NCBI GenBank assembly: GCA_023630215.1
Contig: JALPRQ010000002.1
Location: 1-64,000, forward strand
Reading direction: 5' to 3'
Origin: Rhodobacteraceae bacterium NBU2976
Lineage (GTDB): Bacteria; Pseudomonadota; Alphaproteobacteria; Rhodobacterales; Rhodobacteraceae
Length of the DNA: 64,000 nt
This document shows positions 15,191 through 64,000 of the stretch, piece after piece. A program made the translations under genes and the position numbers. How positions within the stretch are numbered: position 1 is the stretch's first letter; every line of letters starts with the position of its first letter. A model generated the notes under the pieces. The model made no database searches. It worked only from the letters and a program-made list of their open reading frames with translations, and was not told the DNA's origin.

Positions 15191-15342
15191 GGATATTAGC
15201 CTTCGATGAGGTCACGGAACCCGCCGCGCTCCCGGCACGGGGGTGAGTCATCGGGCGTTGGGAGACGGCCTTAACGGACCGGCGCGAACGCCCGGAGGTA
15301 AGATGCTACAATCATGACTGCCCTCCTCTGCTGGCGTGAAGT

Positions 15343-15436
15343 GAGAGGTTGGACAACGACCCAAACGGGACTCGTTACGGCTGCTTCCTTCCGGACCTGA
15401 CCGGGTTGGCGAGGCGTTCGCCCGCGCCAACCTCTC
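15343..15436 (-). ncRNA. ffs: Signal recognition particle RNA (4.5S, small bacterial type)
   Basis: On the minus strand the conserved SRP domain IV is present: the symmetric and asymmetric loops around GGTCAGGTCCGGAAGGAAGC, followed by AGCCGTAACGAGTC. The ends GAGAGGTTGG (15436-15427) and CCAACCTCTC (15352-15343) pair perfectly to close a hairpin of about 94 nucleotides. It binds Ffh to target membrane proteins. The predicted 5' end fits the promoter at 15444-15472. Confidence 0.95.
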
Positions 15437-15443
15437 GATATTG

Positions 15444-47540: not shown

Positions 47541-47995
47541 AAAAATTTCCTTAAAGTAATAGATGTTGGGCGATCATATCCATCATGCGCCGTCTCCGCC
47601 ACTTTCACAAAGCCTAGCGCGGCGAAGGTTTTGTGGTTCGCGGTCAGCTCGACCCGCGTTTGCAGTTCCAGAAAGCCAAATCCGCGTTCCCGGGCTATCT
47701 CCTCGGCCTCTGCCAACAGCGCCCGCGCCAGCCCCTGTCCGCGCTGACTGGCATCCACGGCGATTTTGCCGACATAAAGCGCATCGCCCAGCGGCTTACA
47801 CAGCGCACAGGCTACCGGCGGATCGCCAATGACCAGCGCAACGCCTTCGACCGCCGCACGTTCCAGATCCTCAACAGTCAGGTGATGCATGGAGCTTGGG
47901 GGATCAATCACCCCGTCCATATAGGCAAAGCTGCGCTGGATCAGCTTCAGCATGGGGGCGAAATCGTAGGGGGGCGTGATGCGGGTGACGGTCAT
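47537..47995 (-). CDS. GNAT acetyltransferase
   Basis: A 152-residue GNAT-fold protein starting at the ATG at 47995, which overlaps the stop of the restriction-modification reading frame (ATGA). It carries YVGKIAVDASQRGQGLARALLAEAEEIA (acetyl-CoA loop, near residue 85) and LELQTRVELTANHKTFAALGF. The longer open frame to 48163 lies inside the R-M gene and is not used. Substrate unknown. Confidence 0.85.
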   Translation of the reverse strand: MTVTRITPPYDFAPMLKLIQRSFAYMDGVIDPPSSMHHLTVEDLERAAVEGVALVIGDPPVACALCKPLGDALYVGKIAVDASQRGQGLARALLAEAEEIARERGFGFLELQTRVELTANHKTFAALGFVKVAETAHDGYDRPTSITLRKFL

Positions 47996-48729
47996 TCCGG
48001 CCCTCCCAAATCCATCGTGATCGTTTTCATGATCCGGTCGGTTTCGGAGAGGATTTTGATGATGCGCTGGTAGTGGCGGATGTCGTCGAAGGACAGCGTG
48101 CGGCCCTTGCGGTCCTTTAGCCATTTCTGCGCGGGCTGGTAGCCGCCGATATAGAAATCCCATGACACGTCCGGGACGTTTTCAAACCGCTGACTGTCGT
48201 TGATCCAGACATGACCGTCCTTGCGGAGGGGTTTGTCCACTTCGCCATCGCCCTCGCCGACAAAGGGATAGGGCGTGTCGCCGATAACGTCGGCCTCCAT
48301 CAGGTGGAGACGGCGGAGGCGGTTGCCCTTGGCCGACACATCCCAGAATTCATCGGGGGAGGAGGGCCAGGGGATGCGGGGGAAGTCGATTTTCAGGAAC
48401 TCGGCATACGTCTCGCGGTAGGCGGGGCAATGGAGGGTGCCGTAGATATAGTCGAAGGTCTGCAATTCGTCCGGCTCGCCATGCGTGGGGTGCGTGGCGA
48501 GGGCCCGGAGTTTTTTATAGAGCTTCGGATCGAAGTTTATGCGGCGGGTTTGGTCGAGGTCTTGTTCGTCGGGGTAGAGGTAGATGGGGAAAACAGCGCT
48601 TTGTGTCGTTCTTTCTCCACATTTCGTCTCGACTAACTTGTTACTAATGTAGAAGTGACTGCAAGTTCCCGATTTTTCACTTCTTGCCGACACTAGCGCA
48701 AGGTTCTGACCTTTAATCATATTGTCCAT
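47992..48729 (-). CDS. C-terminal portion of a single-chain restriction-modification protein, cut off by an amber codon
   Basis: A 245-residue continuation of the frame of the larger R-M gene upstream. It keeps the conserved block ETKCGERTTQSAVFPIYLYP (residues 35-54) that in type ISP/IIG-like enzymes lies within the recognition and C-terminal region, then DYIYGTLHCPAYRETYAEFLKIDFPRIPWP and YIGGYQPAQKWLKDRKGRTLS. It is in the same frame as the 797-residue part and separated by one TAG (48748-48750) and six sense codons. Whether an internal start at 48729 works is unknown. AT-rich only in its first 40 codons. Confidence 0.75.
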   Translation of the reverse strand: MDNMIKGQNLALVSARSEKSGTCSHFYISNKLVETKCGERTTQSAVFPIYLYPDEQDLDQTRRINFDPKLYKKLRALATHPTHGEPDELQTFDYIYGTLHCPAYRETYAEFLKIDFPRIPWPSSPDEFWDVSAKGNRLRRLHLMEADVIGDTPYPFVGEGDGEVDKPLRKDGHVWINDSQRFENVPDVSWDFYIGGYQPAQKWLKDRKGRTLSFDDIRHYQRIIKILSETDRIMKTITMDLGGPE

Positions 48730-48747
48730 TGTCGACCGGGCCGTCGT

Positions 48748-51141
48748 CTAGACCACGCTCTCATGGAAAATTATCTTCCGATCATCAAAAGGACGGTAAC
48801 TAATCTCTCTAATTAAAGAACTGCGATCTTGCACGTTCCTCAAGCTTGCTCTAGCTCTTGAAATGTCCCATCCTTTCTTCAAAGGAATATCGAGCATGTT
48901 GCAAAGCTCTGAATCCGACAATTCAACATTCGACGCAAATTCCTGAATTCGCTGAGTTAGTATCTGACTATTTTCGGAAATACTAAAACCGTCCCTCGCC
49001 GTTATTACCCCGGACGAATAAATAGGGAAGAAATCTGCCAAACTCGGTGCTTCTTCAACGTATTTACTAAACGAAGGACCTGAAGGGTGGAAGATATAGT
49101 TTGGAGAAACTGCTCCGCAATCAACCCAATCTGTTTCGCCGAACGATTTTGTATATAAGGTTTCTCCCTTATATCTTCGTGATCCCCATAGCTCGCTAAA
49201 ATATACTTTCCCTTTTTGAGAGGATGATTTTTTTACTTTTACGCATATTAGTATCGCTACACCTTGTTTAATTTCGAAAACGTTTTCATCGGTAATATCA
49301 GCCGGAGGCACTTCACGTATCTCGCTATTGCCATGAAGATCGAGGACATACACTCGATCAAAGGAGTCGAGAAGATGCGATCGCAACCCGCGAAATGAGC
49401 TGCTTTTTAAATAGCCATGGCTCGTAACAAAACCCAATATTCCATATCCGGTCTTTCTAAGAATTCTTTCTGCCAATGCGATAAATTTAATGTAATCATT
49501 ATTAATGTTTTTCTCGAATTGTAGCATTCCCTTTTCTTTGATTTTATTACCGTCAACATATCTAAATGGCTCAACTAACTGAATTTGTTCATCAGACAAA
49601 TTGCCTGACATTATGTTATAGGGCGGGTTGCCGATCACGCACATGATCGGTTGCTGGCGTTTGATGTTGTTGGCCGCTCGCGCCTCATTCGTCAGCCATT
49701 GGGCCATGAACAGGTCGCGGACCTCGCGCTCGCCTTCCTCCAGCGAGTTGGTCAGATAGACCGACAAGCGCGGCGGCTGGCCGGTGGGCTTGTAGCCCAG
49801 CTCCGTCAGGATCATGTCCAGCTTCATGTGGCACATGGCATAAGAGGCCATCAGCAGTTCGAAACCATGCAGGCGCGGGATCAGGTCGCGTTCGATATAG
49901 CCGGACCACATGCCTTCAGCGATGCCCTTGACGCGCGGGGCGATCTGCTTGATGACCTCCGCCAGAAAGGTGCCTGTGCCCGTCGCAGGATCGAGGATCT
50001 GGACCCGGTGGACCTCCCGCTTATTGGTGATGGGTTTGCCCTTTTTGTCGAGAAACCCGGTGTCCCAGTCGACGGTGACTTTGGACGTATCCGCCAGCCC
50101 GTCGGCCAGTCCAAATTCCTTTTGCAGCACCTCGTCCACCGCGCGGACGATGAAATTGACGACGGGTTCGGGGGTATACCAGACCCCCCGCGCCTTGCGT
50201 TTTTTAGGGTTATATTCCTTTAGGAAGTCTTCATAGAAATGAATAAACGGGTCGTTGCGTTTGGTCAGCGATCCGAAATTGGCCATCAGTTTCGCCAGGT
50301 CACAGGCCTGAAACACCAGCGCCAGTTCGTCGATGATCCAGCGGATACGGTCATCCAGCGTCGGTCCGGCGATATAGCTGAACAGGTTGCGCAGGAACGG
50401 GTTGGTTTTCGGGAGGAGTTCGAGGGCTTCTTGGCGCGAAAAATCCTCTACGGTCGGGTCGTGCAGGCGGGCAGCGAACATGCCGTAGGCGATGGTTTCG
50501 GCGTAGATATCCGCAAATTCATCGGGCGAGATATCGTGGATCAACTGTTCCTTGAAACCGCGATATTGCCCCGCCAGTTCGGTTTGCAGGTCGGCGTCTT
50601 CGCGCAGCGCCTTGCCCATCACGTCCTTGATCAGCGTCGCCCGTCCCGCCATCATTTTCGCCAGCTTCGCGGCGGAGGTGATGGTTTGCGGACGGGCAGT
50701 GACGAAATCCTGTAACAGGTGGGCGAACTGGTCGAAATTTTCCGGCCGCGGCTGGATGCCCATCAGCACGTCCCCGATGGTGACCGAGGCGATCCGTTCC
50801 CCCTCGCGATAGAAATCCCAGTCGAGGCCATTGGTATAGATCAGGTTCGGCAGGCCCGCGATATAGCGATCCTGCTGTTCCTTGTTCGGCCCTTTGCGCG
50901 GGCGGATGTCGATTTCAATGTCTTTGGCCTCAATATGGCCTAGCGGAATGTCGCCCTGTTCGATGATGAAATCCGGGGCGCCGCACGCCTCGCGTTTGGG
51001 TTCATTGGTTGCGATGATGTCTGCGGTGGTTTCGATCAGCGTCTTGATGGCCGGGCGATAGGAATGCTCGGTCGCGTTGCCGCGCGCATGAATGGCGGAA
51101 ATGTCGGTCAGGAACTGGGAAATATCAGCGGTTGAAATCAT
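48748..51141 (-). CDS. Type IIG/ISP-like restriction-modification protein, N-terminal portion ending at in-frame TAG
   Basis: A 797-residue part of a single-chain nuclease-methyltransferase. Residues 56-73 (PDFII...GHIEAK) match a PD-(D/E)xK nuclease. A helical connector follows, then the adenine-N6 methyltransferase with motif I DPATGTGTF (384-392), GVWYTPEPVVNFIVRAV (319-335) and motif IV NPPY (505-508). From residue about 508 to the end the DNA is AT-rich and encodes the target-recognition domain. The stop is a TAG where relatives appear to have Trp or another residue, and the same frame continues for 245 residues to 47992. It lies 10 bases after cobN, inside the cobalamin operon. Confidence 0.85.
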   Translation of the reverse strand: MISTADISQFLTDISAIHARGNATEHSYRPAIKTLIETTADIIATNEPKREACGAPDFIIEQGDIPLGHIEAKDIEIDIRPRKGPNKEQQDRYIAGLPNLIYTNGLDWDFYREGERIASVTIGDVLMGIQPRPENFDQFAHLLQDFVTARPQTITSAAKLAKMMAGRATLIKDVMGKALREDADLQTELAGQYRGFKEQLIHDISPDEFADIYAETIAYGMFAARLHDPTVEDFSRQEALELLPKTNPFLRNLFSYIAGPTLDDRIRWIIDELALVFQACDLAKLMANFGSLTKRNDPFIHFYEDFLKEYNPKKRKARGVWYTPEPVVNFIVRAVDEVLQKEFGLADGLADTSKVTVDWDTGFLDKKGKPITNKREVHRVQILDPATGTGTFLAEVIKQIAPRVKGIAEGMWSGYIERDLIPRLHGFELLMASYAMCHMKLDMILTELGYKPTGQPPRLSVYLTNSLEEGEREVRDLFMAQWLTNEARAANNIKRQQPIMCVIGNPPYNIMSGNLSDEQIQLVEPFRYVDGNKIKEKGMLQFEKNINNDYIKFIALAERILRKTGYGILGFVTSHGYLKSSSFRGLRSHLLDSFDRVYVLDLHGNSEIREVPPADITDENVFEIKQGVAILICVKVKKSSSQKGKVYFSELWGSRRYKGETLYTKSFGETDWVDCGAVSPNYIFHPSGPSFSKYVEEAPSLADFFPIYSSGVITARDGFSISENSQILTQRIQEFASNVELSDSELCNMLDIPLKKGWDISRARASLRNVQDRSSLIREISYRPFDDRKIIFHESVV

Positions 51142-51150
51142 TCTGGATTT

Positions 51151-54100
51151 CTAGCGCGAGTTGGGCGGAGTGCCTAGCGGTTTGTTTAAGATGGTGTGCA
51201 ACAACGCCCGCGCAGAATTACTTCTCGGGTGCCACATGTCGCGGTCTATCGCCTCCTGAAAGCGTTCCGCGATTTCACGGAGCGCGGCAGGGTTGTGGTC
51301 GGCGATGAACTGGCGGGTGGTTTCGTCCTCCAGAAACGCTTCATGCACAAGATCGAAATGATGGTTTTTGACGGCGCGCGTGGTTGCCGCGAACGCAAAC
51401 ATATAATCGACCGTCGCAGCCATTTCGAACGCACCTTTATAGCCGTGGCGCTTGACCCCCTCGATCCATTTGGGGTTCACAACGCGGGAGCGGATGACGC
51501 GCGACATTTCTTCGTCGAGTGTGCGGATCACGGGGCGTTCAGGGCGGGAATGGTCGTTGTGATAAATCTTCGGCGCTTCGCCTTGCAGGTGTTCAATCGT
51601 CGCCGCGACGCCGCCTTCGAATTGGTAATAGTCGTCGCTGTCCAGAATGTCGTGCTCACGATTGTCCTGATTGTGGACCACCGCCTGAACGCCCGTTAAG
51701 CGCGTTTCCAGCTCCGCGCGCGCCCCCGCGCCGCCCGCCTTGCCGCCATAGGCATAGCCACCCCATGTCAGGTACGCCTCCGCCAGATCGGCCTTGTCGT
51801 TCCAGATGCGTTCGTCGATCAACGCCTGCAATCCCGCACCATAGGCCCCGGGTTTTGCGCCGAAAATGCGATAGCCCGCGCGATCTTCGCCCAGCGTTTT
51901 AACCTCCGCGCGATAGCGTGCCGCCAGTGGGTTCATGTCGTCGGGTTCCTCCAACTTCATCACCGCACGGATCGCGCTATCGAGCAGATCAATCTGCGCC
52001 GGAAACGCATCGCGGAAGAACCCCGAAATCCGCAAGGTCACATCTACACGCGGACGGTCCAGCACGCTCAGCGGCATAATCTCGAACCCCGTCACGCGGC
52101 GACTGGCATTATCCCATTCCGGCTTAACGCCCATCAGCGCCATCGCCTGCGCAATATCATCACCACCCGTGCGCATGTTGGATGTCCCCCATGCGGTCAG
52201 CACCATGGCGCGGGGCCAGTCGCCTTCCTCCTGCAAATGCCGTTCGATCAGCAGGTTCGCCGACTTCCAACCCAGCGTCCACGCGGCTGGCGTTGGCAAG
52301 GTCCGGCTGTCGATGGAGAAAAAATTCCGGCCCGTCGGCAGCACGTCCAGACGCCCGCGCGTCGGGGCACCCGAGGCGCCGGGGGCGACGAAACGGCCAG
52401 CAAGGCCGCTGAGGAGCCCCCGCATCTCCGCCGGTCCACAGCCCCGCAAGGTTGGGACAACATCAGCATGTATCCCTTCCACCACCAGCCGCGTGCGTTT
52501 CCACATCGGATCAGGTTCCAACCCTTCGATCAGCCGTCCGGCGATCCATTCCAGCCGCTCGACAGAGTCGCCCAACGTCCGCCACGGGTCCGAAGATGCC
52601 GCCTTCAAAAACTTGTGGCGCGGCCCGTCATACGCATCCGACATCACACAATCGAGCGGGTCAAACCCCATCTCCATATCCGCCGCCAAGGCCCGGATAA
52701 GCGAGGCATTCGCCCCCTTCCCATCCCCACGCGGCACCCGCACCAAGGCCGCCACTAGATCACGTTCCAGCGTTCCCGTGGGCGAGGACCCGAATATATG
52801 CAGCCCGTCCCTGATCTGGCTTTCCTTGAGATCACACAGGTAATTATCAAGCGCCGCTAGTTGCTTCCCTTCTTCAGCATTCCAATCAATTCCCGCATCT
52901 TCATCGATCCTTGTCGCTCGGGTCAGGTTCAATATCTCGCCGCGCAGGAAATCCAGCCGCCGGGGATCCACGCCTGACGCTTCGTAATATTCGTCAACCA
53001 GCGCCTCCAGATCCTTGAGCGGACCATAGGTCTCCGCCCGCGTCAGCGGTGGTGTCAGATGGTCGATGATCACGGTTTGCGCACGGCGCTTGGCCTGCGT
53101 CCCTTCACCCGGATCATTCACAATGAAGGGATAGAAATGGGGTGTCGGGCCGAACACAGCCTCCGGAAAACATTCATCGGACAGCGCCAGCGCCTTACCC
53201 GGCAACCACTCCATATTGCCGTGCTTGCCCATATGGACAATCGCATGGGCACCCAACTGATGGCGCAGCCAGAAATAGAAGGCGAAATAATTGTGTGGCG
53301 GCACAAGGTCCGGTGAGTGATACGTTTCCTTGGGATCAATATTATAGCCCCGCGCTGGCTGTATCCCGACAACCGCATTGCCGAACCGCAGGATCGACAG
53401 GCTGAAATAGCCGCAATCGACCTCACCAGTGGTAAAAAACGGATCAGCCTCCGGCGCACCCCACCTTTCCTCAACCTTGCGGCGGACCTCGGCGGGCAGT
53501 TGGCCATAATCAATCTGATAGTCCGACATCATCAGCCGCTCGCCACCGTCACGGCGCACACGGTCGGTCAGCCAGTTCGTCGGTCCCGCCAGTATCCGCG
53601 CCATCAGGTCGGCGCTGTCGGCTGGCAAGTCACGCACGGCAAACCCTTCATCCGCCAGCGCCCGCAGCACATCGACCGTTGCCGCAGGCGTGTCCAGCCC
53701 GACGCCATTCGCCAGCCGTCCGTCCTTGTTGGGATAATTCGCCAGCACCAGCGCGACCTTTTTCTCCGCCACAGGAACCCGCCGCAGCTTCGCCCAGTTC
53801 GCTGCCAACTTCGCCACAAACGCAATCCGCCCGCCATGGGCGCGGTAGGCGGTGATCAGGCATTCGGTCGCCTCGTCAAAATACGCCTCGCCTTTGAAAC
53901 TCACCGCACGGGTCAGGATGCGCCCGTCGATTTCCGGCAAGCTGACATTCATCGCAATGTCCCGCGCAGACAGACCGTTTAGGCCGCTGTCCCACGCCTC
54001 CTCCGTCCCCGCAGCAAAAACAATCTGGAACACCGGCGCACCGGTGGAATCCAGAACCGTCCCTTTGCCCGCATCTTGGGGCGTAGATATCGCAAAACTG

Positions 54101-54897
54101 GTGCCGTTCAGCACCACATCAGGTTGGGCGTCGGCGAAAATCTGGGAAACCGTTGCGGCGGACAGTTCATCCTTTAATGACGCCACAAAAATCGGCAGCG
54201 GGTTCAGCCCCTCCCGCGCCAACTGTTTAACCAACCGATTGACCGGATGCAGACCCGCGCCCTGCACCAATGCGCGGTAAAACACCAACGCTACGACAGG
54301 TTGATCCGGCTGCCATGCTGCGCGGATCGTGTCCAACGACGCCGACTCCTCGCCCGGCCAATAGAGCCCTGCGCGCAATAGCGGCTTCGCCTGCTGCGGG
54401 CGTTCAGCCCCGTCCAGCATTGCCCGCGTATAGCGCAGGAAATTCGCCGCATTCTCCGGCCCGCCCTCAATCAGATAAGACCAGAGCGCGTCATAATCCG
54501 CGCCCGACACCGTCGAAAATGCCCGCAATTCTTCGTCAGGTTTATCGTCCCCGGGCAGCACAGCAAAGCCAACACCCGCCGCACCCAACCGCACCGCGAA
54601 TTGCTCCAGCCCATAGGGCCAATAGGCCCGTCCGCCCAGCAACCGCACCACAACCAGCTTCGCCTTGGTCGCCGTGTCGTCCAGATATTTATCAATCGTA
54701 AAACTGTGCGAGAGGTTCCCGAGGTTCGCCAGACGCAAACTCTGTGGCCCGTCCTTGATCGTACTGAAGGCTTCGGACAGCGCGGCGATTTCCGTGTCCG
54801 CCGCGCTGATTACGATCACGTCGGCGGAGGATTGACCCAGATCGACCGGCTCCGACCCGTCGGAAATCTCGCCGGGTTGGACTTGTAGCAGGTGCAT
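51151..54897 (-). CDS. cobN: Cobaltochelatase subunit CobN
   Basis: The large subunit of the aerobic cobaltochelatase (with CobS and CobT), inserting cobalt into hydrogenobyrinic acid a,c-diamide. 1248 residues, the full length for CobN, related to magnesium-chelatase BchH. Landmarks include FVASLKDELSAATVSQIFADAQPDVVLNGTSFA, IVHMGKHGNMEWLPGKALALSDECFPEAVFG and MRTGGDDIAQAMALMGVKPEWD. CobS and CobT are not in the window. The start overlaps the stop of the GNAT gene upstream. Confidence 0.97.
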   Translation of the reverse strand: MHLLQVQPGEISDGSEPVDLGQSSADVIVISAADTEIAALSEAFSTIKDGPQSLRLANLGNLSHSFTIDKYLDDTATKAKLVVVRLLGGRAYWPYGLEQFAVRLGAAGVGFAVLPGDDKPDEELRAFSTVSGADYDALWSYLIEGGPENAANFLRYTRAMLDGAERPQQAKPLLRAGLYWPGEESASLDTIRAAWQPDQPVVALVFYRALVQGAGLHPVNRLVKQLAREGLNPLPIFVASLKDELSAATVSQIFADAQPDVVLNGTSFAISTPQDAGKGTVLDSTGAPVFQIVFAAGTEEAWDSGLNGLSARDIAMNVSLPEIDGRILTRAVSFKGEAYFDEATECLITAYRAHGGRIAFVAKLAANWAKLRRVPVAEKKVALVLANYPNKDGRLANGVGLDTPAATVDVLRALADEGFAVRDLPADSADLMARILAGPTNWLTDRVRRDGGERLMMSDYQIDYGQLPAEVRRKVEERWGAPEADPFFTTGEVDCGYFSLSILRFGNAVVGIQPARGYNIDPKETYHSPDLVPPHNYFAFYFWLRHQLGAHAIVHMGKHGNMEWLPGKALALSDECFPEAVFGPTPHFYPFIVNDPGEGTQAKRRAQTVIIDHLTPPLTRAETYGPLKDLEALVDEYYEASGVDPRRLDFLRGEILNLTRATRIDEDAGIDWNAEEGKQLAALDNYLCDLKESQIRDGLHIFGSSPTGTLERDLVAALVRVPRGDGKGANASLIRALAADMEMGFDPLDCVMSDAYDGPRHKFLKAASSDPWRTLGDSVERLEWIAGRLIEGLEPDPMWKRTRLVVEGIHADVVPTLRGCGPAEMRGLLSGLAGRFVAPGASGAPTRGRLDVLPTGRNFFSIDSRTLPTPAAWTLGWKSANLLIERHLQEEGDWPRAMVLTAWGTSNMRTGGDDIAQAMALMGVKPEWDNASRRVTGFEIMPLSVLDRPRVDVTLRISGFFRDAFPAQIDLLDSAIRAVMKLEEPDDMNPLAARYRAEVKTLGEDRAGYRIFGAKPGAYGAGLQALIDERIWNDKADLAEAYLTWGGYAYGGKAGGAGARAELETRLTGVQAVVHNQDNREHDILDSDDYYQFEGGVAATIEHLQGEAPKIYHNDHSRPERPVIRTLDEEMSRVIRSRVVNPKWIEGVKRHGYKGAFEMAATVDYMFAFAATTRAVKNHHFDLVHEAFLEDETTRQFIADHNPAALREIAERFQEAIDRDMWHPRSNSARALLHTILNKPLGTPPNSR

Positions 54898-55349
54898 CAG
54901 AGGGCCTTGGTCATAAAAATGCTGAATTCGCCGTCGTCATAGTCGCCAAACGGCCCGCAGCGGGTAAATCCGCCGCGTTCATAAAGCCGATGCGCCGCAT
55001 GCAGCAACGTTCCGGTTTCGAGATTCAGGACCGGCAACCCCAGCCCACGTGCTTCGTCCTCGACCTGCGTTAGCAGCGCTGCGCCAACGGATCGCCCCCG
55101 CGCCGCGGGATCGACAAACATCGACTTCACTTCGCCATATCCATCCCGGATCGCCAGCGCCGCGCAGCCGAGCGTTTCATTACCGTCCTTGGCCACGAAA
55201 AACCGGATATCCTCGCCACAAAGCGCATCTATTGACAGGAAGTGACACTCCCCCACCGGAAACAGCGAGGTCATCAGATCGTGCGACCCTTGCAACAGCC
55301 GTATCGCGCCCGCGTCGCGCGGATCGCCATATGTAACCGCAACACTCAC
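54897..55349 (-). CDS. GNAT acetyltransferase in the cobalamin operon
   Basis: A 150-residue GNAT protein with ESMFVDPAARGRSVGAALLTQVEDEARG (acetyl-CoA loop near residue 80) and NLETGTLLHAAHRLYERGGF. It overlaps cobN at its stop (by one base) and cobW at its start by four bases, so it is part of the operon. Substrate unknown; a role in B12 synthesis is not established. Confidence 0.88.
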   Translation of the reverse strand: MSVAVTYGDPRDAGAIRLLQGSHDLMTSLFPVGECHFLSIDALCGEDIRFFVAKDGNETLGCAALAIRDGYGEVKSMFVDPAARGRSVGAALLTQVEDEARGLGLPVLNLETGTLLHAAHRLYERGGFTRCGPFGDYDDGEFSIFMTKAL

Positions 55350-56416
55350 GCCGCGCCCAGCGCCCGTTCGATAGCCAGCCGATCCAGCCCGGCCTCGCCA
55401 ATCACAACAAGGTTGGCGCGTCCCTTTTCGGCATCCGTCAGCGGGCGGTCGAAATAGGTTTCAATTCGCGGGCCTACCGCCTGTATCACCAGCCGCATCG
55501 GTTTCGCGCCAACCTGCGCGAACCCTTTCAGGCGCAATATGTCATGGTCGCGGATCACTTTGGCGACCGCGTCCGCGAATGCCTCAACCTCTGTCACAAC
55601 ACCGCGCGTGACCTGAAAAGTTTCAAACTCGTCATGCCCGTGGTCGTGCTCGTGATCATGGTCGTGATCGTCCTCATCATCGTGGTGATGATGGTGATGG
55701 ACCTCGTGCCGGGCGTCCAGATCATCCTCGGCCCCGATTCCCAAGCCCAGCAGCATCTGCGGCGAAATCGCCCCCATCGAGGTCCGGATCACCTGAACAC
55801 CATCGCGGCTGCCTGCCTTTAGACGGGTTTCCAGATCGTCTGACTGGGCGTCGCTCAGAAGGTCCGTTTTGTTGACGATGATCATGTCCGCACAGGCGAG
55901 CTGATCCTCGAACAGTTCCGACAGCGGGGTCTCGTGATCCAGATTGTCATCCGCGCCCCGTTGCGCATCAATCGCACCTTCGTCATGGGCAAACCGCCCT
56001 TCGGCCATTGCTGCGCCATCGACCAGCGTGATCACGCCGTCCACCGTCACGCGATTGCGGATTTCCGGCCAGTTGAACGCCCGCACCAACGGCTGCGGCA
56101 GCGCCAGCCCCGAGGTTTCAATCACGATATGATCCGGCGGCAGGTCGCGGTTCAGCAGTTTTTCCATCGCGGGGACAAAATCCTCTGCCACCGTGCAGCA
56201 GATACAGCCGTTCGACAGCTCCAGCACGTCATCATCCTCGCACCCTTCGATCCCGCAGCCTTTCAGCAGGTCGCCATCGACGCCCAGATCACCGAACTCG
56301 TTGATAATCAACGCAATTCTCTTGCCGTTGGCGTTGCGCAACATATGCTGCACGAGCGTGGTTTTGCCCGCGCCCAGAAACCCTGTGATCACCGTTGTCG
56401 GTATCTTGCCTGCCAT
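55346..56416 (-). CDS. cobW: CobW-family metallochaperone GTPase with His-rich loop
   Basis: A 356-residue COG0523 GTPase that delivers metal, probably cobalt, for cobalamin synthesis. Walker A GFLGAGKTTL near residue 13, the metal site NGCICC (Cys-x-Cys-Cys near residue 70), NKTDLL near residue 183, and a CobW C-terminal domain. A loop at residues 241-262 is very rich in His and Asp (HEVHHHHHHDDEDDHDH...), a plausible cobalt-binding region. Overlaps GNAT downstream and follows DUF1636. Confidence 0.95.
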   Translation of the reverse strand: MAGKIPTTVITGFLGAGKTTLVQHMLRNANGKRIALIINEFGDLGVDGDLLKGCGIEGCEDDDVLELSNGCICCTVAEDFVPAMEKLLNRDLPPDHIVIETSGLALPQPLVRAFNWPEIRNRVTVDGVITLVDGAAMAEGRFAHDEGAIDAQRGADDNLDHETPLSELFEDQLACADMIIVNKTDLLSDAQSDDLETRLKAGSRDGVQVIRTSMGAISPQMLLGLGIGAEDDLDARHEVHHHHHHDDEDDHDHDHEHDHGHDEFETFQVTRGVVTEVEAFADAVAKVIRDHDILRLKGFAQVGAKPMRLVIQAVGPRIETYFDRPLTDAEKGRANLVVIGEAGLDRLAIERALGAA

Positions 56417-56417
56417 A

Positions 56418-56786
56418 TTATTCCCCTGTGGTCAGCGCCGGAATGCGGGCGCGAAAATGCCCTTTCACCCCTTGCGGCCATTGTTTAAAGGGCACCTGCC
56501 CCGTGTCACTTTCGCGATGCCGCTCGGCATATTCGACGATGGCGTCTGCGGAGGTTGCGTCCGGCGTGAAGGAGCCCAAAACATAGGTCAGCTTGCCGGG
56601 CGCGGCAATCACCACGTTACAGTGGAACTCGCACCCCATCGTGCAGGATACGCGGCGCACAGGCAAACCCTTGGCCCCTGCCAATGCCTCGACTTCCTCG
56701 GCCAGCATTTCGCCGCCGGTTTTGCCGTTATGGATTTTCTCTTCGACACTGTAGTTACAGGTATCGCATACGATAATTTCTGTCAT
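56418..56786 (-). CDS. DUF1636 metal-binding protein
   Basis: A 122-residue protein of the DUF1636 family. Metal-type Cys sites are CDTCNY at residues 7-12 and SCTMGCEFHCNVV (near residue 47). DUF1636 genes are typically next to cobW and cobK in Rhodobacterales, as here, so a role in cobalt handling or ferredoxin-like electron supply is likely but unproven. One base from cobW and one base from cobK stops. Confidence 0.88.
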   Translation of the reverse strand: MTEIIVCDTCNYSVEEKIHNGKTGGEMLAEEVEALAGAKGLPVRRVSCTMGCEFHCNVVIAAPGKLTYVLGSFTPDATSADAIVEYAERHRESDTGQVPFKQWPQGVKGHFRARIPALTTGE

Positions 56787-56787
56787 G

Positions 56788-57507
56788 TCACTTTCTTAGT
56801 CGCGCGAGCCAGTCGGTCACGTCTGAAACCGTCGTCACGGTCTCTACCACCGGCAAGACGGGGCGTTCAATGACGATAATCGGGATTGACAGGTAAGTCG
56901 CCGCCTCGATCTTGGCAAAGGTCGCGTCACCGCCAGAGTTTTTCGTGACCAGATGTGTGATCCGGTGGTTCTGCATCAGCGCCAGTTCGTCGTCGAACCG
57001 GTGCGGCGGGCGCTGGATGATCGCCTCGCCATTGGTGAAGGGGTTAGCCACTGCGTCGATTGCACGGAACAGGAACCAGACGTCGGCACGATCCGCAAAC
57101 GGGTTCAGCGACTGCCCGCCGACGGTCAGAAAGGCGCGAGCGCCCGTCGGCAGGGCATCCGCCGCGTCAGGATAATCACCGACAATTGTCCAGCTTGGCG
57201 CAGGCGTCCAAGCGGGGCGTTCAAACCGCAGCATCGGGATTTTCGCACGAGAGGCCGCCGCACAGGCGTTCCATGATATATTTTTGGCATAGGGGTGCGT
57301 TGCATCAATCAGTGCGGTGATCCCAGCATCTGTGATGTAGCGCAGCAACCCGTCCGCCCCGCCGAACCCGCCCGTGCGGGTCGGATGATCGCGGGGGCGC
57401 GGTTCCGCGGTAACACCGGACAGGCTTTCCATTACGTCATAGCCTTCGGTGAACAGGGTGTCGGTCAGCCGTGCGCCGTCTGATGTGCCGCCAAGGATCA
57501 GGATCAT
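56788..57507 (-). CDS. cobK: Precorrin-6A reductase
   Basis: A 239-residue NADPH-dependent reductase of the CobK/CbiJ family. ILILGGTSDGARLTDTLFTEG gives the coenzyme-binding start; LIDATHPYAKNISWNACAAA near residue 70 and LVTKNSGGDATFAKIEAAT near residue 190 are the conserved blocks. It reduces precorrin-6A to precorrin-6B. Overlaps cbiD by four bases (ATGA). Confidence 0.95.
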   Translation of the reverse strand: MILILGGTSDGARLTDTLFTEGYDVMESLSGVTAEPRPRDHPTRTGGFGGADGLLRYITDAGITALIDATHPYAKNISWNACAAASRAKIPMLRFERPAWTPAPSWTIVGDYPDAADALPTGARAFLTVGGQSLNPFADRADVWFLFRAIDAVANPFTNGEAIIQRPPHRFDDELALMQNHRITHLVTKNSGGDATFAKIEAATYLSIPIIVIERPVLPVVETVTTVSDVTDWLARLRK

Positions 57508-58523
57508 GCAAAATCCCTCCGGCTGAGGATATTCCCGGCCCGGTCAATCACGATGATTTCCACTTGAACGGGCGCGCCGTCCAGCATCGCCAGCGCTTCG
57601 CGTTGCGCCCCCTCGGCCACCCAGTCGGCAAACGCCGCGCCGTTGCGTTCATAAACCTCCGCCGCCGTCACCGCCTCGCCCACGTCGAAATCCGACAGCG
57701 CCGTAAAATCCACTTGCGAGCGCCCGGAATGCAAATCCCGCGCCCCTTGCGCCAGCTTGGTCAGCTTGCCGATCCCCCCCGCCAGCGTCAGCCGCGCGAC
57801 CGGATGGCGGCGCATATATTTCAGCATCCCCCCGACAAAATCGCCCATGTCGAGGCAATCTTCCTGCGACAGCTTATAAATCCCCCGCGCCGTGGCCTCG
57901 GACGTTGAACCCGTCGCTGCGATCACATGATCCCGCCCTGTCGCCACCGCCACGTCGATGCCGCGATGGATGGAGGCTATCCACGCCGCACAACTAAATG
58001 GCCGCACAATCCCCGTGGTCCCAAGGATCGAAAGCCCGCCAACGATCCCCAACCGCCTGTTCCAGGTTTTCTTCGCCAGTTCCTCGCCATCCCGGACCGA
58101 GACCGTCACATCAAGGTCCATCGTGTCCGACACATCCGCAATCGCCTGATCAATCATCAGGCGCGGCACCGGGTTGATGGCGGGTTCCCCGACCGCAAGC
58201 GGCAAGCCGGGTTTGGTTACGGTGCCGACCCCCTTACCCGCGAAGAACCGCAAGCCCTGCCCCGGCGCACCCTGCGCCACCCGCGTTAGGATCAGAGCGC
58301 CGTGTGTTACATCCGGATCATCCCCTGCGTCTTTGATAATTCCTGCCTCGGCCCAGCCCTCGCCCGCCGATGTTTCCGCCAGCGCGAATGCCGGCGTCTC
58401 CCCTTTTGGCAAAGTAATCGAAACCGGGTCCAGAAACCCGCCGCCGCTCAACGCTGACGCTGCCGCCTTGGCCGCAGCCGCAGCGCAGGCGCCCGTGGTC
58501 CAGCCGCGCCGCAGCTCGCTCAT
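57504..58523 (-). CDS. cbiD: Cobalt-precorrin-5B C1-methyltransferase CbiD
   Basis: A 339-residue enzyme. GGAGG precedes the ATG at 58523; the HAD stop overlaps it. LRRGWTTGACAAAAAKAAASAL at the start (the TTGxCA motif), PGVTVRTI-type DVTVSVRDGEELAKKTWNRRLGIVGGLSILGTTGIV, and DFVGGMLKYM near residue 220 are CbiD-specific. CbiD normally works on cobalt-containing intermediates of the anaerobic route, replacing CobF of the aerobic one. No cobF is seen in the window. Confidence 0.95.
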   Translation of the reverse strand: MSELRRGWTTGACAAAAAKAAASALSGGGFLDPVSITLPKGETPAFALAETSAGEGWAEAGIIKDAGDDPDVTHGALILTRVAQGAPGQGLRFFAGKGVGTVTKPGLPLAVGEPAINPVPRLMIDQAIADVSDTMDLDVTVSVRDGEELAKKTWNRRLGIVGGLSILGTTGIVRPFSCAAWIASIHRGIDVAVATGRDHVIAATGSTSEATARGIYKLSQEDCLDMGDFVGGMLKYMRRHPVARLTLAGGIGKLTKLAQGARDLHSGRSQVDFTALSDFDVGEAVTAAEVYERNGAAFADWVAEGAQREALAMLDGAPVQVEIIVIDRAGNILSRRDFA

Positions 58524-59218
58524 CCGGCCTCCAGCCACGCAGGGATTTGGCCGATGTCGCGCAGCACCACGTCCGCATGCGGAGCGAGATCGCCATGATC
58601 CGCCATGCCTGTCAGCACCGCCACCCGTATCATGCCAGCGTCGCGCGCGGAAAACAGGTCGTGCGTTGTGTCACCGACCATCGCGACCTCGGCCGGCGCA
58701 AGGCCCATCTGGTCTGCGAAAGCCAACAGCATCCCCGGTTGCGGTTTCGACCCAAACCCGCTGTCAAACCCGGCGATATAGTGAAAATCCTGTTCGATAC
58801 CTGCCCGCCCCAGATGCACCCGTGCTGCACTTTCCGCATCATTCGTGGCAATCCCCAGCTTTAGGTCGCGAGCCAGAAAATCCTGCATCAGCGGGACCAG
58901 CGGCACAGCAGGCACCATTTCGATCCCGGTGGCCGAATGTTTCAGCTCCTCGTAAAGCCCGGCATAATCGCGCTCCGGGAAAACCGTGCTGACCAAATCC
59001 GTCAGCTCGCCCAACGTCCCGGCAATCACCGGGCTTTGCTTTAAGAAACGGTTCTCCGCTCGGTCGAACATCAACACCTCGGCCAGCCGATCCGCAACCT
59101 CCGGATCATCTGCGGCCATCGCGTCGATAACCTGTCCGCACCAGACGCCCCAGGTCTTGTGAAAATCGAACAGCGTGCCGTCCTTGTCGAATAACAGACC
59201 TTTGATGCGCGTGGCCAC
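58520..59218 (-). CDS. HAD-family phosphatase (phosphoglycolate phosphatase-like)
   Basis: A 232-residue haloacid-dehalogenase-superfamily hydrolase. Motif I FDKDGTLFD (residues 9-17), motif II TNDAES near residue 122, motif III Lys in GSKPQPGM and motif IV MVGDTTHDL near residue 175. Start is GTG at 59218 with AAGGCAA before it. It heads the second cobalamin operon by an overlap with cbiD; a phosphatase step in B12 synthesis is possible but not demonstrated. Confidence 0.88.
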   Translation of the reverse strand: MATRIKGLLFDKDGTLFDFHKTWGVWCGQVIDAMAADDPEVADRLAEVLMFDRAENRFLKQSPVIAGTLGELTDLVSTVFPERDYAGLYEELKHSATGIEMVPAVPLVPLMQDFLARDLKLGIATNDAESAARVHLGRAGIEQDFHYIAGFDSGFGSKPQPGMLLAFADQMGLAPAEVAMVGDTTHDLFSARDAGMIRVAVLTGMADHGDLAPHADVVLRDIGQIPAWLEAG

Positions 59219-59314
59219 TTGCCTTGATCCCTTTTCCCGCTAACCTGCCCGTGGGAGGACAGATGGTTCACGGATTAAGTTATGGGTTCGCGCGCACCTT
59301 GACCAGAGGGTGCG

Positions 59315-62300
59315 ATGCTTAAGTTTCGCTCCGACAGGGATCGGCCCGTCCATATGGGTCGCTACCGCGTGGAGCGGTTGGCGCGCGGTGATACGGTGCG
59401 GGATGTGCCACCTTATCAGCCGATCCATTTTGACGCCCCCCCCGAAAGTCTGATTTCCGCGATTGCGCCCTATCAAGCCATGCTGGATGCGATCCGCGAC
59501 GGCTATGCCAAGCGCGAACGCGCCGTCATTCCAGACGACCCGACGGAGCGCGCGAACCATCTGAAAGCGTTCGGATATTATCAGGATGCATCCCTGATGG
59601 GCGTCTGCCGGACCGACGGCGCGTTTCTGGATGCGCCGACCGTTAATCCGGGTGTAGCAGCGTTGGCCGAGGAATTGCGTACCAAGCAGGTGAGATCACA
59701 GGCGGCAGGTGTCGACGTGATCATGGCAGAACTGAAGGAGTCCATGTCCCGCCCGCCCGAGGCCTGCACGCACCACACGCACGCCCTCGTTTTCCTGACC
59801 GAATATGTCCGCGAGCCGGACATCCACGAACCCGGCAGCGACTGGATCAGGGGCTGTCAGGCGCATCGCGCGTCGGTGCGTGGGGCGGAAAACGCTGTGG
59901 TCATCGCGAATTACATTCGCCTGCTGGGGTATGAGGCCCGGGCGCATACCATGGCCGCGTCGGACGTTGACCTAAACCGGCTGGCCGTCGCCTCCGGTTT
60001 GGCGATTGTGGAAAATGACAAGCTGGTCGCGCCGTGGATCGGCACAGGGTTCGGGCTGGCGGCGATCACCACGACGCTGGAGATCGCCCCCGACAGCCCG
60101 CTTGCTCCGCAAAACCTGCCACGCGGTCGCCCCGCCTACAGCCACCGCCGGTTCAAGGACGGCGCACACCCGTTTGAACGCATCAAACGGGTTGAGACGC
60201 CGACAACCTACCTCGACGAAGCCCGCATTCCCCGCATCCCGAAACGCACCGACATGTTCGCGCGATCCCTATTCGGCGACATGGGCAAAAAGAACCAAGA
60301 GGCCGCGAAACGCGGCAATTATTTGCGCAAATCTGCCACCGCCTTTGCCCCTCGCCACGCGCTTGGCGCGTTCATTATGCTAGAGGATCGTGACCCTGCC
60401 CCAACCCGCAATCCGATGGTTGCCCAACAGGACAAAGCCGCCGATCTGGTCAAGGCCGCCAGCTATTTTTTGGGGATCGACGCGGTCGGCATATCGCGCT
60501 GCCCCGACTGGGCATGGTATAGTCACAACGCCGCCGCCGAGCCCATACCCCCCCGCCACGACCACGCCATCAGTATGATCGTCGATCAAGGCTATGACAC
60601 GATGGAGGGGGCCTCGGGCGACGACTGGATCGCCGCCTCGCAATCCATGCGCGCCTACCTGCGCTTTTCGCTAATAGGTGGGATCATCGCGCAGCATATC
60701 CGCAATATGGGCTACGAGGCGCAGGTGCACACGGTGATGAACTCTACCGTCCTGCAACCGCCCTTGTTGCTACTGGCAGGTCTGGGCGAGGTCAGCCGGA
60801 TTGGCGAAGTGATCCTTAACCCCTATCTCGGCCCGCGACTGAAATCGGGCGTTGTGACCACCAACATGCCGATGGCGCATGACAAACCCATCGATTTCGG
60901 CCTGCAAAAATTCTGCGATGCCTGCAACAAATGTGCCCGCGAATGCCCGTCAGGGGCGATCACGGCAGGGCCGAAACGGATGTTCAATGGCTATGAAATC
61001 TGGAAATCCGACAGCCAGAAATGCACAACCTATCGCATCACCCAAGATGGCGGTGCGATGTGTGGACGCTGCATGAAAACCTGCCCGTGGAATCTGGAAG
61101 GTCTGTTTGCCGAGGCCCCGTTCCGTTGGGCCGCCAGCCACATTCCGGCGCTGGCGAAACCCCTCGCGAAGCTGGATGATAAGATCGGCAAAGGTGGCCT
61201 GAACCCCGTCAAAAAATGGTGGTGGGATTTGGAGATGCGTGACGAAGGTCCCTATCAGCCTCCGGCCGAGCCGGTAAACAAACGCGACCTGCAACCCGAA
61301 ATCGACCTGAAATTCACGGATCAGACCCTCGCCGTTTACCCCGCCAACCTCGCGCCGCCGCCATGGCCCTATCCGTTCCCGATGGATCGGGAGGCCGGGA
61401 TCAAGGCCTACAACGAAATGCTGTCGGCGGAACAATACAAGGCGCTGCTGGCACGCGGTGCGACTGAAAAGCTGGCACACAAATACGTCGCTGATCAGGG
61501 GGAAAGTCCGGTGCTGGCGGTTGTGGTCAGCAAGGTCGAACAGATGACACCCGACATCATCAAATACGAATTTCAGTCCGCCGACGGCAGCGACCTGCCC
61601 CCCTTCACCGCGGGCGCCCATATCGACGTTGTCATCGCGCCCGAATTCTTCCGCCAATATTCGCTGTCCGGCGATCCGGCGGACCGGAAAACCTATCAGA
61701 TCGGTGTGCTGCGCGAGGATGCGGGCCGCGGCGGCTCTGTCCTGATGCAGCGAATATTTACCGAAGGACGCAAGCTTTACATCTCCAAACCCATCAACCA
61801 TTTCCCACTGGCAGAGGGCAGAAAACATTACCTGATGGGCGGCGGGATCGGTGTAACGCCCATGATCGCGATGGCGTACGAATTGCACGCCAAGGGCAGC
61901 CCGTTCGAACTCCACTACAGCTACACGTCCCGCGATTCCGCCGGATATCTGTCGGACCTCGCCGCCACCCTTTGGCGAACGCACCACCATTGCAGCGCCG
62001 ACCAAACACGCGCCGACCTATCCGCCATCCTTCGATACGAACCCGACGCCCACGTCTATGCCTGTGGCCCTGATCGCTACATCGCCGCCGTTCAAGACGC
62101 CGCCCGCGCCAATGGATTCCCCGACGAAAATATCCATATCGAATATTTCACACTGCCCGAGGAACCCGAATATGAAAACCACCCGTTCACACTGCACCTG
62201 ACCAAGTCGAATCGCGACATCCATGTCGCCGCCGACGAAACTGCCGCCGATGTTTTGAACGCCGCGGGGTTCAACGTGCTGGTCAAATGCGCCGACGGTT

Positions 62301-62446
62301 TATGCGGCACCTGCAAATGCGGCCTGATTGGCGGCGAGGTCGAACATCGCGACCATGTGTTATCGGCACAACAACGGGAGACCGCGATTATCCTCTGCCG
62401 CTCTCGCGCTGCGGACAAAGACGGGATCATTGAAATCGACCTCTAA
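59315..62446 (+). CDS. Cobalamin-dependent reductive dehalogenase fused to flavin/[2Fe-2S] reductase
   Basis: A 1043-residue protein with two halves. Residues 1-300 look like a degenerate copy of the cobalamin-binding domain; residues 370-530 are the active copy (ISRCPDWAWYSHNAAAEPIPPRHDHA, VHTVMNSTVLQPPLLLLAGLGEVSRIGEVILNPYLGPRL), followed by two [4Fe-4S] motifs, CDACNKCARECP (about 534-545) and CGRCMKTCP (about 583-591). The C-terminal half is a phthalate-dioxygenase-reductase-like module: RQYSLSG (about 778), GGGIGVTPM (about 843) and the plant-type [2Fe-2S] CADGLCGTCKC (about 992-1002). This layout is that of the catabolic, oxygen-tolerant NpRdhA/BhbA group; no twin-arginine signal, so cytoplasmic. 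GAGGGTG precedes the ATG. Confidence 0.9.
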   Translation: MLKFRSDRDRPVHMGRYRVERLARGDTVRDVPPYQPIHFDAPPESLISAIAPYQAMLDAIRDGYAKRERAVIPDDPTERANHLKAFGYYQDASLMGVCRTDGAFLDAPTVNPGVAALAEELRTKQVRSQAAGVDVIMAELKESMSRPPEACTHHTHALVFLTEYVREPDIHEPGSDWIRGCQAHRASVRGAENAVVIANYIRLLGYEARAHTMAASDVDLNRLAVASGLAIVENDKLVAPWIGTGFGLAAITTTLEIAPDSPLAPQNLPRGRPAYSHRRFKDGAHPFERIKRVETPTTYLDEARIPRIPKRTDMFARSLFGDMGKKNQEAAKRGNYLRKSATAFAPRHALGAFIMLEDRDPAPTRNPMVAQQDKAADLVKAASYFLGIDAVGISRCPDWAWYSHNAAAEPIPPRHDHAISMIVDQGYDTMEGASGDDWIAASQSMRAYLRFSLIGGIIAQHIRNMGYEAQVHTVMNSTVLQPPLLLLAGLGEVSRIGEVILNPYLGPRLKSGVVTTNMPMAHDKPIDFGLQKFCDACNKCARECPSGAITAGPKRMFNGYEIWKSDSQKCTTYRITQDGGAMCGRCMKTCPWNLEGLFAEAPFRWAASHIPALAKPLAKLDDKIGKGGLNPVKKWWWDLEMRDEGPYQPPAEPVNKRDLQPEIDLKFTDQTLAVYPANLAPPPWPYPFPMDREAGIKAYNEMLSAEQYKALLARGATEKLAHKYVADQGESPVLAVVVSKVEQMTPDIIKYEFQSADGSDLPPFTAGAHIDVVIAPEFFRQYSLSGDPADRKTYQIGVLREDAGRGGSVLMQRIFTEGRKLYISKPINHFPLAEGRKHYLMGGGIGVTPMIAMAYELHAKGSPFELHYSYTSRDSAGYLSDLAATLWRTHHHCSADQTRADLSAILRYEPDAHVYACGPDRYIAAVQDAARANGFPDENIHIEYFTLPEEPEYENHPFTLHLTKSNRDIHVAADETAADVLNAAGFNVLVKCADGLCGTCKCGLIGGEVEHRDHVLSAQQRETAIILCRSRAADKDGIIEIDL

Positions 62447-62548
62447 GCGGAAAAGCGCTGATTGGCTGAAATGCTCTTCAGACTGATCGGCGTACGCCCT
62501 ATGTGAAGGCCACGCAGTGACATGCGTCAAACTGTATTGGGGGACCAT

Positions 62549-63049
62549 ATGAAATATATTATAATTTTGATCGCGATCCTCGTCGTTGGTGGCGGCGGGT
62601 ACTATTACTACGACAAACAAGTCTCCGCCGAAGTGGCACGGGTTGAGGCGGAAAAGGCAGAAGCCGCGCGGATCGCATTAGAAGAGGCTGAAGCCGCACG
62701 CTTGGCCGAAGAAGCAGAAGCCGCCCGGCTTGCCGAAGAAGCCGAGGCTGAGGCCGCGCGTGTTGCCGCCGAGCTTGAAGCAGCGACCGCAGCCGCAGAA
62801 GCCGAAGCGGCACGGCTGGCAGCCGAGGCGGAAGCCGCTGCACAGAATGCACAGGATGCCGTTCAGGATCAGGTAGATCAGCTGACCGAACAGGCTGAGG
62901 ATGCAGCCGACGCCGCGGAAGAGGCCGTGAACGACGCGCTTCAGTCAGCAGAGGATTCCTTGCAAGACGCTGTCGACTCGGCGGTTGATGAGATGAATGA
63001 TGCTGCCAACCCCGAGGAACCGGTGGCAGAGACATCAGAAAACAACTAA
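62549..63049 (+). CDS. Membrane-anchored Ala/Glu-rich coiled-coil protein
   Basis: A 166-residue protein. GGGGGA precedes the ATG at 62549. An N-terminal anchor (KYIIILIAILVVGGGGYYYY) is followed by about 100 residues of Ala/Glu repeats (EAARLAEEAEAARLAEEAEAE type) forming a long coiled coil, then an acidic Asp/Asn-rich end with further heptads (DAADAAEEAVNDALQSAEDSLQD). It resembles anchored stalk proteins of Rhodobacterales; role unknown. Its end is 22 bases from the convergent DUF3572 gene. Confidence 0.7.
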   Translation: MKYIIILIAILVVGGGGYYYYDKQVSAEVARVEAEKAEAARIALEEAEAARLAEEAEAARLAEEAEAEAARVAAELEAATAAAEAEAARLAAEAEAAAQNAQDAVQDQVDQLTEQAEDAADAAEEAVNDALQSAEDSLQDAVDSAVDEMNDAANPEEPVAETSENN

Positions 63050-63071: not shown

Positions 63072-63350
63072 TTACGTCCAATTCGGCACCTGCCCGCCCG
63101 GTAATTCCTGGCGGGCACGTGCGACAGACTCGTTTGGCAAATTCATGTCGTGGCAAAACGCCAACAGGCTAGGCTCATTCGACAGTAGAAAATCCAGAAC
63201 ACTCCCCAGAAATTCGCTATCTGCTGCATTTTCCCGCAAGTGATCGGGAGACAGGCCGCTTTGTGCCATAAAGGGGCCGGATTGATCCGGGTCGGAAACG
63301 ATCCACGATAGTGCCTGAAGCGCGATTACCTCTGCCTGTCCAATATTCAC
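63072..63350 (-). CDS. DUF3572 protein
   Basis: A 92-residue protein from a GTG at 63350, which has AGGA about 8 bases upstream and matches the usual family length; frames to 63410 (ATG) or 63437 are also open. DUF3572 core: AEVIALQALSWIVSDPDQSGPFMAQSGLSPDHLRENAADSEFLGSVLDFLLSNEPSLLAFCHDMNLP. Such proteins lie beside pleD in Rhodobacterales, as here, divergently. Function unknown. Confidence 0.8.
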   Translation of the reverse strand: MNIGQAEVIALQALSWIVSDPDQSGPFMAQSGLSPDHLRENAADSEFLGSVLDFLLSNEPSLLAFCHDMNLPNESVARARQELPGGQVPNWT

Positions 63351-63437
63351 TGATCCTAATCCTGTTTGGTTACCAATGTTTAACGTTTTTCGGATTGAGT
63401 CTGCTCCCATGTTTAACCCGTGTATCTGGGAGTGCAA

Positions 63438-64000
63438 ATGTCCGGTCGCATTCTTGTTGTAGATGATATTGCTACAAATCGTCTGATCTTGCAGGCGAAA
63501 TTGTCGTCAGCCTATTTCGAGGTGCTTTTGGCCGAAAATGGTGAACAGGCGCTGGACATTGCGACAAATGAAATGCCGGACATGGTACTGCTTGATGTCA
63601 TGATGCCCGGTATCGACGGATACGCCGTTTGTTCGCGTTTGAAACGGAATCCCGACACCGCTCACATTCCGGTCATCATGATCACTGCCGCTAATGAACA
63701 ATCGGAACGGGTGCGCGGATTCCAGGCTGGTGCGGATGATTTTCTTAACAAACCGATCAACGACATGACCTTGTTCACGCGGGTGCGCAATCTTTTGCGC
63801 GTCAAGATCATGTTTGACGAACTGAAAATGCGCGAATCTACCACTCAGGAACTGGGCCTGACCGAGCTTCTGGATATGAACAGCCTCAAAAACCAAAGCG
63901 GATCGGTGATGATCGCGCCCAAAAACCAAGAACAGGGGATTGGTTGGCTTAAAAGCATGAAATCTCACCTCCCGTACGAGGTTTTTGCCTCCTATGGTGA
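63438..64000 (+). CDS. pleD: PleD-like response regulator, 5' part (runs off the window)
   Basis: At least 187 residues are encoded before the window ends. The first receiver domain is complete: ILVVDDIATNRLILQAKLS, phosphoacceptor Asp in MVLLDVMMPGIDG (near residue 53), ITAAN and the Lys in FLNKPIND. After it comes a second receiver start or linker (GSVMIAPKNQEQGIG). In PleD proteins two receivers are followed by a GGDEF diguanylate cyclase, expected beyond base 64000 but not visible. GGGAGTG precedes the ATG. Confidence 0.85.
   Translation, partial: MSGRILVVDDIATNRLILQAKLSSAYFEVLLAENGEQALDIATNEMPDMVLLDVMMPGIDGYAVCSRLKRNPDTAHIPVIMITAANEQSERVRGFQAGADDFLNKPINDMTLFTRVRNLLRVKIMFDELKMRESTTQELGLTELLDMNSLKNQSGSVMIAPKNQEQGIGWLKSMKSHLPYEVFASYG

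Follow-up and report, generated by a model that had tools for sequence, protein, structure and literature searches.

The window, the whole 64,000-nucleotide stretch of the Rhodobacteraceae bacterium NBU2976 genome that was analysed, contains an intact gene, rdhA (59315–62446, forward strand), whose product of 1043 amino acids is predicted to be a self-sufficient catabolic reductive dehalogenase. The reading frame occupies exactly these positions, begins with ATG and has no internal stop codons; in the alignment its N terminus, start included, lines up with that of NpRdhA of Nitratireductor pacificus. Divergent from rdhA lies a gene for a HAD-superfamily phosphatase (58520–59218, reverse strand; HAD-IA model over its cut-off), whose stop codon overlaps the possible start of cbiD (ATGA). 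The HAD gene is the only one between rdhA and the series cbiD-cobK-DUF1636-cobW-GNAT-cobN (51151–58538, reverse strand), which is context and does not belong to the enzyme. A second group of B12 genes, comprising cbiX-like/cobH, cobI/J/M and cobB, starts about 17 kb from rdhA. Both B12 neighbours named in the earlier note, the divergent cbiD-cobN series and the cbiX-cobB genes some 17 kb away, are thus present.

The gene downstream of rdhA (62522–63049, forward strand) encodes a protein rich in Ala and Glu that has a single hydrophobic segment near its N terminus; a similar protein occurs at the same place in congeners, and no family match was obtained for it. It is followed by genes for a DUF3572 protein (63072–63437, reverse strand; PF12096, 1.9e-29), a common downstream neighbour of such enzymes, and for a PleD-type response regulator (63438–64000, forward strand; NF007135), which extends beyond the window to position 64823. 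The promoter scan of positions 59150–59400 yielded nothing. Beside rdhA there was no sign of a transporter, a MarR-type regulator or a gene for ring degradation, and no RdhB anchor was seen among its annotated neighbours.

Two further features of the window were recorded. A Type ISP restriction-modification enzyme seems to be split over two ORFs (47992–51141, reverse strand) between cobN and the gene for cob(I)yrinic acid adenosyltransferase, one (48748–51141) carrying the methylase domains and the beginning of the specificity domain, the other (47992–48729) the rest. A bacterial small SRP RNA is located at 15339–15437 on the reverse strand (RF00169, 59.7 bits).

In the RdhA protein a degenerate corrinoid repeat is followed by the active corrinoid domain, which bears two [4Fe-4S] sites, and by a reductase tail with sites for FMN, NAD(P)H and a [2Fe-2S] cluster. 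The NCBIfam model TIGR02486 (RDH) passes its cut-off of 160.35 with 194.4 bits and matches twice, strongly at about residues 405–623 and weakly in the N-terminal part (59537–60103). The latter match falls in the vestigial repeat (about residues 71–264; 59525–60107, forward strand), and alignment of the two repeats with each other gave a score of 150, compared with 30 ± 4.7 and a maximum of 53 over 500 shuffles. In the vestigial repeat the catalytic Tyr is replaced by Ser and the Lys by Gly, and the Fe-S cysteines are absent. The active domain with its clusters spans residues 361–645 (60395–61249, forward strand), as mapped on NpRdhA; its two [4Fe-4S] motifs, C534/537/540/544 and C570/583/586/590, are invariant in all 85 homologues compared. 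The C-terminal part, about residues 730–1043 (61502–62443, forward strand), resembles phthalate dioxygenase reductase: in the PDB search residues 734–1039 or so match 2pia (6.2e-54), as well as the reductase tails of self-sufficient P450s. The tail motifs RQYS, GGGIG and C992-x4-C997-x2-C1000...C1028 for the [2Fe-2S] cluster are present and conserved among homologues. The one-chain layout read by the earlier note, with degenerate and active corrinoid domains, two [4Fe-4S] sites and a C-terminal flavin/[2Fe-2S] reductase, is therefore borne out by the RDH matches, the repeat alignment, the motifs and 2pia. The duplicated corrinoid domain and the fused reductase do not fit a respiratory reductive dehalogenase, which has one corrinoid domain, no reductase tail, TAT export and an RdhB anchor. 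The start of the protein, MLKFRSDRDRPVHMG, lines up with that of the cytoplasmic NpRdhA and, by eye, has no RR motif with a hydrophobic stretch.

NpRdhA, with structures 4ras, 6zxu and 6zy1 (PMC7565698), is the best relative both by sequence and by predicted fold. In the PDB sequence search 4ras covers residues 3–101 and 151–702 (9.6e-163). The 14 best PDB matches of an AlphaFold2 model made from 24 sequences (mean pLDDT 75, pTM 0.75) are all NpRdhA structures (TM 0.83–0.84 on the target, about 40% identity), and P450 and PDR-type reductases come next. This agreement holds at the fold level only, since model confidence is low in the active domain, with pLDDT of about 41–60 over much of residues 480–620.

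The class-III B12 fold is common to reductive dehalogenases and epoxyqueuosine reductase, and the QueG model TIGR00276 does match the RdhA protein weakly. Its 26.7 bits are, however, far under the cut-off of 200, a genuine QueG (440 bits) is encoded elsewhere in the genome, and both the RDH score and the NpRdhA matches point to a dehalogenase. It is scarcely credible that the protein is a QueG-like enzyme with no dehalogenase function, and this identity was rejected. The phylogeny with RdhA and QueG sequences that the earlier note had suggested agrees: in the core-domain tree the protein falls within a self-sufficient clade, which is split from NpRdhA and short forms with support of 100 and is also separate from QueG, although very long outgroup branches make the deep part of this tree only a loose guide. 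The identity as a cobalamin-dependent reductive dehalogenase is backed by family score, residues, fold and tree alike.

The catalytic and pocket residues of NpRdhA are retained. In that enzyme Y426 is the proton donor, and the substrate hydroxyl is bound by S422, K488 and R552 (PMC7565698). NpRdhA residues Y426, K488, R552, S422, M423 and F291 correspond to Y448, K510, R574, S444, M445 and F315 of RdhA, all invariant among the 85 homologues; F315 sits in the linker just upstream of the active corrinoid domain. The Tyr/Lys pair expected by the earlier note in the second corrinoid domain is accordingly kept as Y448 and K510, and no loss was seen. Two pocket positions vary: of the 85 relatives, 62 have Cys and 21 Val where RdhA has A441, with Ala in NpRdhA too, and most have Val where RdhA has L337.

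One genome scan yielded 80 homologous rdhA loci, mostly from Rhodobacterales and a few from bins assigned to gammaproteobacteria and others. Enzymes of this kind are common in the bacterium's own family: in an even draw of near-complete genomes, 161 of 397 (about 40%) carry a homologue matching at E ≤ 1e-200. No relative found exceeds 66–67% full-length identity, and the branch is fairly long. The gene order HAD(-), rdhA(+), DUF3572(-), PleD(+) recurs, being conserved in roughly half of these loci. HAD is adjacent and divergent in 46/80, DUF3572 adjacent in 37/80 and PleD downstream in 34/80, while HAD and DUF3572 occur together in 35/80, with more than 2.5 kb available upstream in 76 loci and downstream in 62, so that some loci are too short for both sides.

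In the full-length tree RdhA stands outside clades A and B, beside the protein of Monaibacterium marinum (L092), with weak support (74). Membership of the HAD-linked clade A was rejected by the AU test (p 0.003), and joining to clade B was not (p 0.44); the exact placement is uncertain because the groups were named after the tree was seen and the window branch is long. Of the positions that distinguish the two clades, 12 are A-like in the protein, 11 are B-like and 8 are neither, a mixture that permits no conclusion on a domain-wise mosaic origin. GC content (rdhA 60.4%, HAD 60.8%, cbiD-cobN 61.2%) is like that of the neighbours and thus gives no sign of recent acquisition.

The earlier note had read the position of rdhA beside the B12 operons as co-selection of cofactor supply and enzyme, and the distances invite this: a single gene separates rdhA from cbiD-cobN, and the second B12 cluster starts about 17 kb away. 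Yet within about 9 kb of rdhA none of the 80 loci has a homologue (>38% identity) of the 12 B12-pathway genes of the window, and no cobalamin riboswitch was detected in the window at the Rfam threshold. The arrangement exists in the genus without rdhA. The genome that retains rdhA is small (2.8 Mb); the gene is absent from all 12 sampled congeners (search at 1e-30), every one of which has the HAD gene. All eight congener contig pieces examined contain HAD-cbiD-cobK-DUF1636-cobW without rdhA; cobN is next in six of them, and the other two end within or just after the series. DUF3572 flanks HAD on the opposite side in six pieces, all those reaching so far; in five of these six PleD comes after it, and then the gene that is next on the window's contig, which is putatively RimO-like. 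Co-selection with B12 genes was rejected on synteny and is very unlikely as the cause of their adjoining.

In six of the eight congeners (the HAD-DUF3572 intervals of L140, L141, L142, L143, L144 and L147) a 4HBT-family thioesterase gene occupies the place of rdhA. In Monaibacterium (L092) HAD, thioesterase and rdhA occur together, with thioesterase and rdhA side by side. A tblastn search of the eight congener intervals for an rdhA remnant gave no match at E ≤ 1. In the simplest reading, ancestors had rdhA at this locus and the sampled congeners lost it, and the B12 operon came to lie behind HAD through a different event, at the level of the genus. An alternative kept alive by the AU result against clade A is that rdhA was inserted independently at the same position. 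Under either history, the nearness of rdhA and the B12 operon does not demonstrate co-selection; adjacency to B12-synthesis genes characterises the genus. This is a useful negative result, as adjoining a B12 operon is here no evidence of functional linkage.

The genome was examined for pathway genes with one family search at a time. The 4-hydroxybenzoate 3-monooxygenase gene pobA was found (628 bits, cut-off 539), and the genes for both subunits of protocatechuate 3,4-dioxygenase (pcaG, pcaH), pcaD and a 3-oxoadipate-processing gene were over their cut-offs, with a pcaB-like gene just under. The protocatechuate-branch cluster (L163:6774-12147; G000:C1) comprises the pcaB-like gene, a 3-oxoadipate:acetyl-CoA acetyltransferase-type gene, pcaG, pcaH and pcaD. 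The pobA and pca genes are on another contig than rdhA. Genes for homogentisate dioxygenase (hmgA), HpaB and phenylacetyl-CoA epoxidase (PaaA) were not found in these searches.

Taken as an enzyme of the BhbA/JtRdhA type, RdhA is, with high confidence, a self-sufficient catabolic reductive dehalogenase, probably cytoplasmic and driven by NADPH, and acting most likely on ortho-bromo and ortho-iodo phenols. By analogy with characterised relatives, NADPH would be oxidised by the FMN of the C-terminal reductase, and the electrons would run via the [2Fe-2S] centre and both [4Fe-4S] clusters to the cob(II)alamin, in its base-off form, of the second corrinoid domain. S444, K510 and R574 would hold the phenolate while cobalt takes off the ortho-halogen and Y448 supplies the proton; the first corrinoid-like domain would have a structural role only. 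The enzyme thus probably removes bromine or iodine from phenols, and 3-bromo- and 3,5-dibromo-4-hydroxybenzoate are among the likeliest substrates. These two are favoured as growth-relevant because the PobA/Pca genes are present and hmgA, HpaB and PaaA were not found: the product, 4-hydroxybenzoate, could be passed to PobA and then to PcaGHBD of the same genome. With pobA and pcaGHBD in the genome, the best-supported role would be to feed bromo-4-hydroxybenzoates, once debrominated, into the beta-ketoadipate pathway.

The protein could instead be a divergent enzyme of the RdhA fold with an altered substrate or role, acting on other halogenated aromatics or in detoxification rather than catabolism. 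Its deep branch, which the AU test keeps apart from the main HAD-linked clade (p 0.003), the pocket differences at A441 and L337 and the lack of an adjoining catabolic gene are consistent with this. The phenolate-binding and proton-donor residues are nevertheless all conserved, and the genome is equipped with PobA/Pca for 4-hydroxybenzoate, while the genes sought for phenylacetate-type products (hmgA, HpaB, PaaA) were not found, which makes such a change of role unlikely. A shifted substrate or halide range of this deep self-sufficient lineage with A441, for instance towards bulkier or chlorinated phenols, is similarly improbable. NADPH-driven debromination or deiodination of ortho-halogenated phenols remains the preferred reading; with such enzymes in 161 of the 397 near-complete family genomes, it bears on the aerobic turnover of natural bromophenols.

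Among known systems, NpRdhA shares with RdhA the vestigial and active corrinoid domains, the two [4Fe-4S] sites and the residues Y426/K488/R552/S422/F291 (about 40% identity), but it lacks the reductase tail and needs separate redox partners. The earlier note had offered NpRdhA and BhbA as examples of the layout; this is right for BhbA, which has the tail, and not for NpRdhA (PMC10463259). BhbA of Comamonas sp. 7D-2 is described as a self-sufficient catabolic RdhA with a C-terminal PDOR domain, like RdhA by this description, in the pathway for bromoxynil and 3,5-dibromo-4-hydroxybenzoate (PMC10463259). The same source places BhbA in a plasmid-borne bromoxynil-degradation cluster (PMC10463259), whereas rdhA is flanked by HAD and DUF3572-PleD, and catabolic genes are absent beside it.

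Roseobacter sp. MED193 encodes an RdhA (L033) with 62% whole-length identity and the same layout, carrying Val at the position of A441. An RdhA of this strain, Ros_A3X954, debrominates 2,6-dibromophenol (PMC13101508). MED193 has two RdhA genes, with frames of 1083 and 537 amino acids, so that L033 is not certainly the assayed enzyme and equating the two was dropped.

JtRdhA of Jhaorihella thermophila is NADPH-dependent, tightly coupled and works in air; it debrominates and deiodinates ortho-halophenols, and chloro analogues only inhibit it (PMC10463259). Its described layout equals that of RdhA, without a TAT signal and with a duplicated corrinoid domain, two [4Fe-4S] clusters and a PDOR tail with FMN and [2Fe-2S], and both enzymes carry the Y/K/R residues of NpRdhA (PMC10463259). 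The self-sufficient catabolic kind is thus already described in BhbA and JtRdhA, and rdhA adds another member, a divergent natural variant for the small set of characterised oxygen-tolerant, NADPH-driven debrominases.
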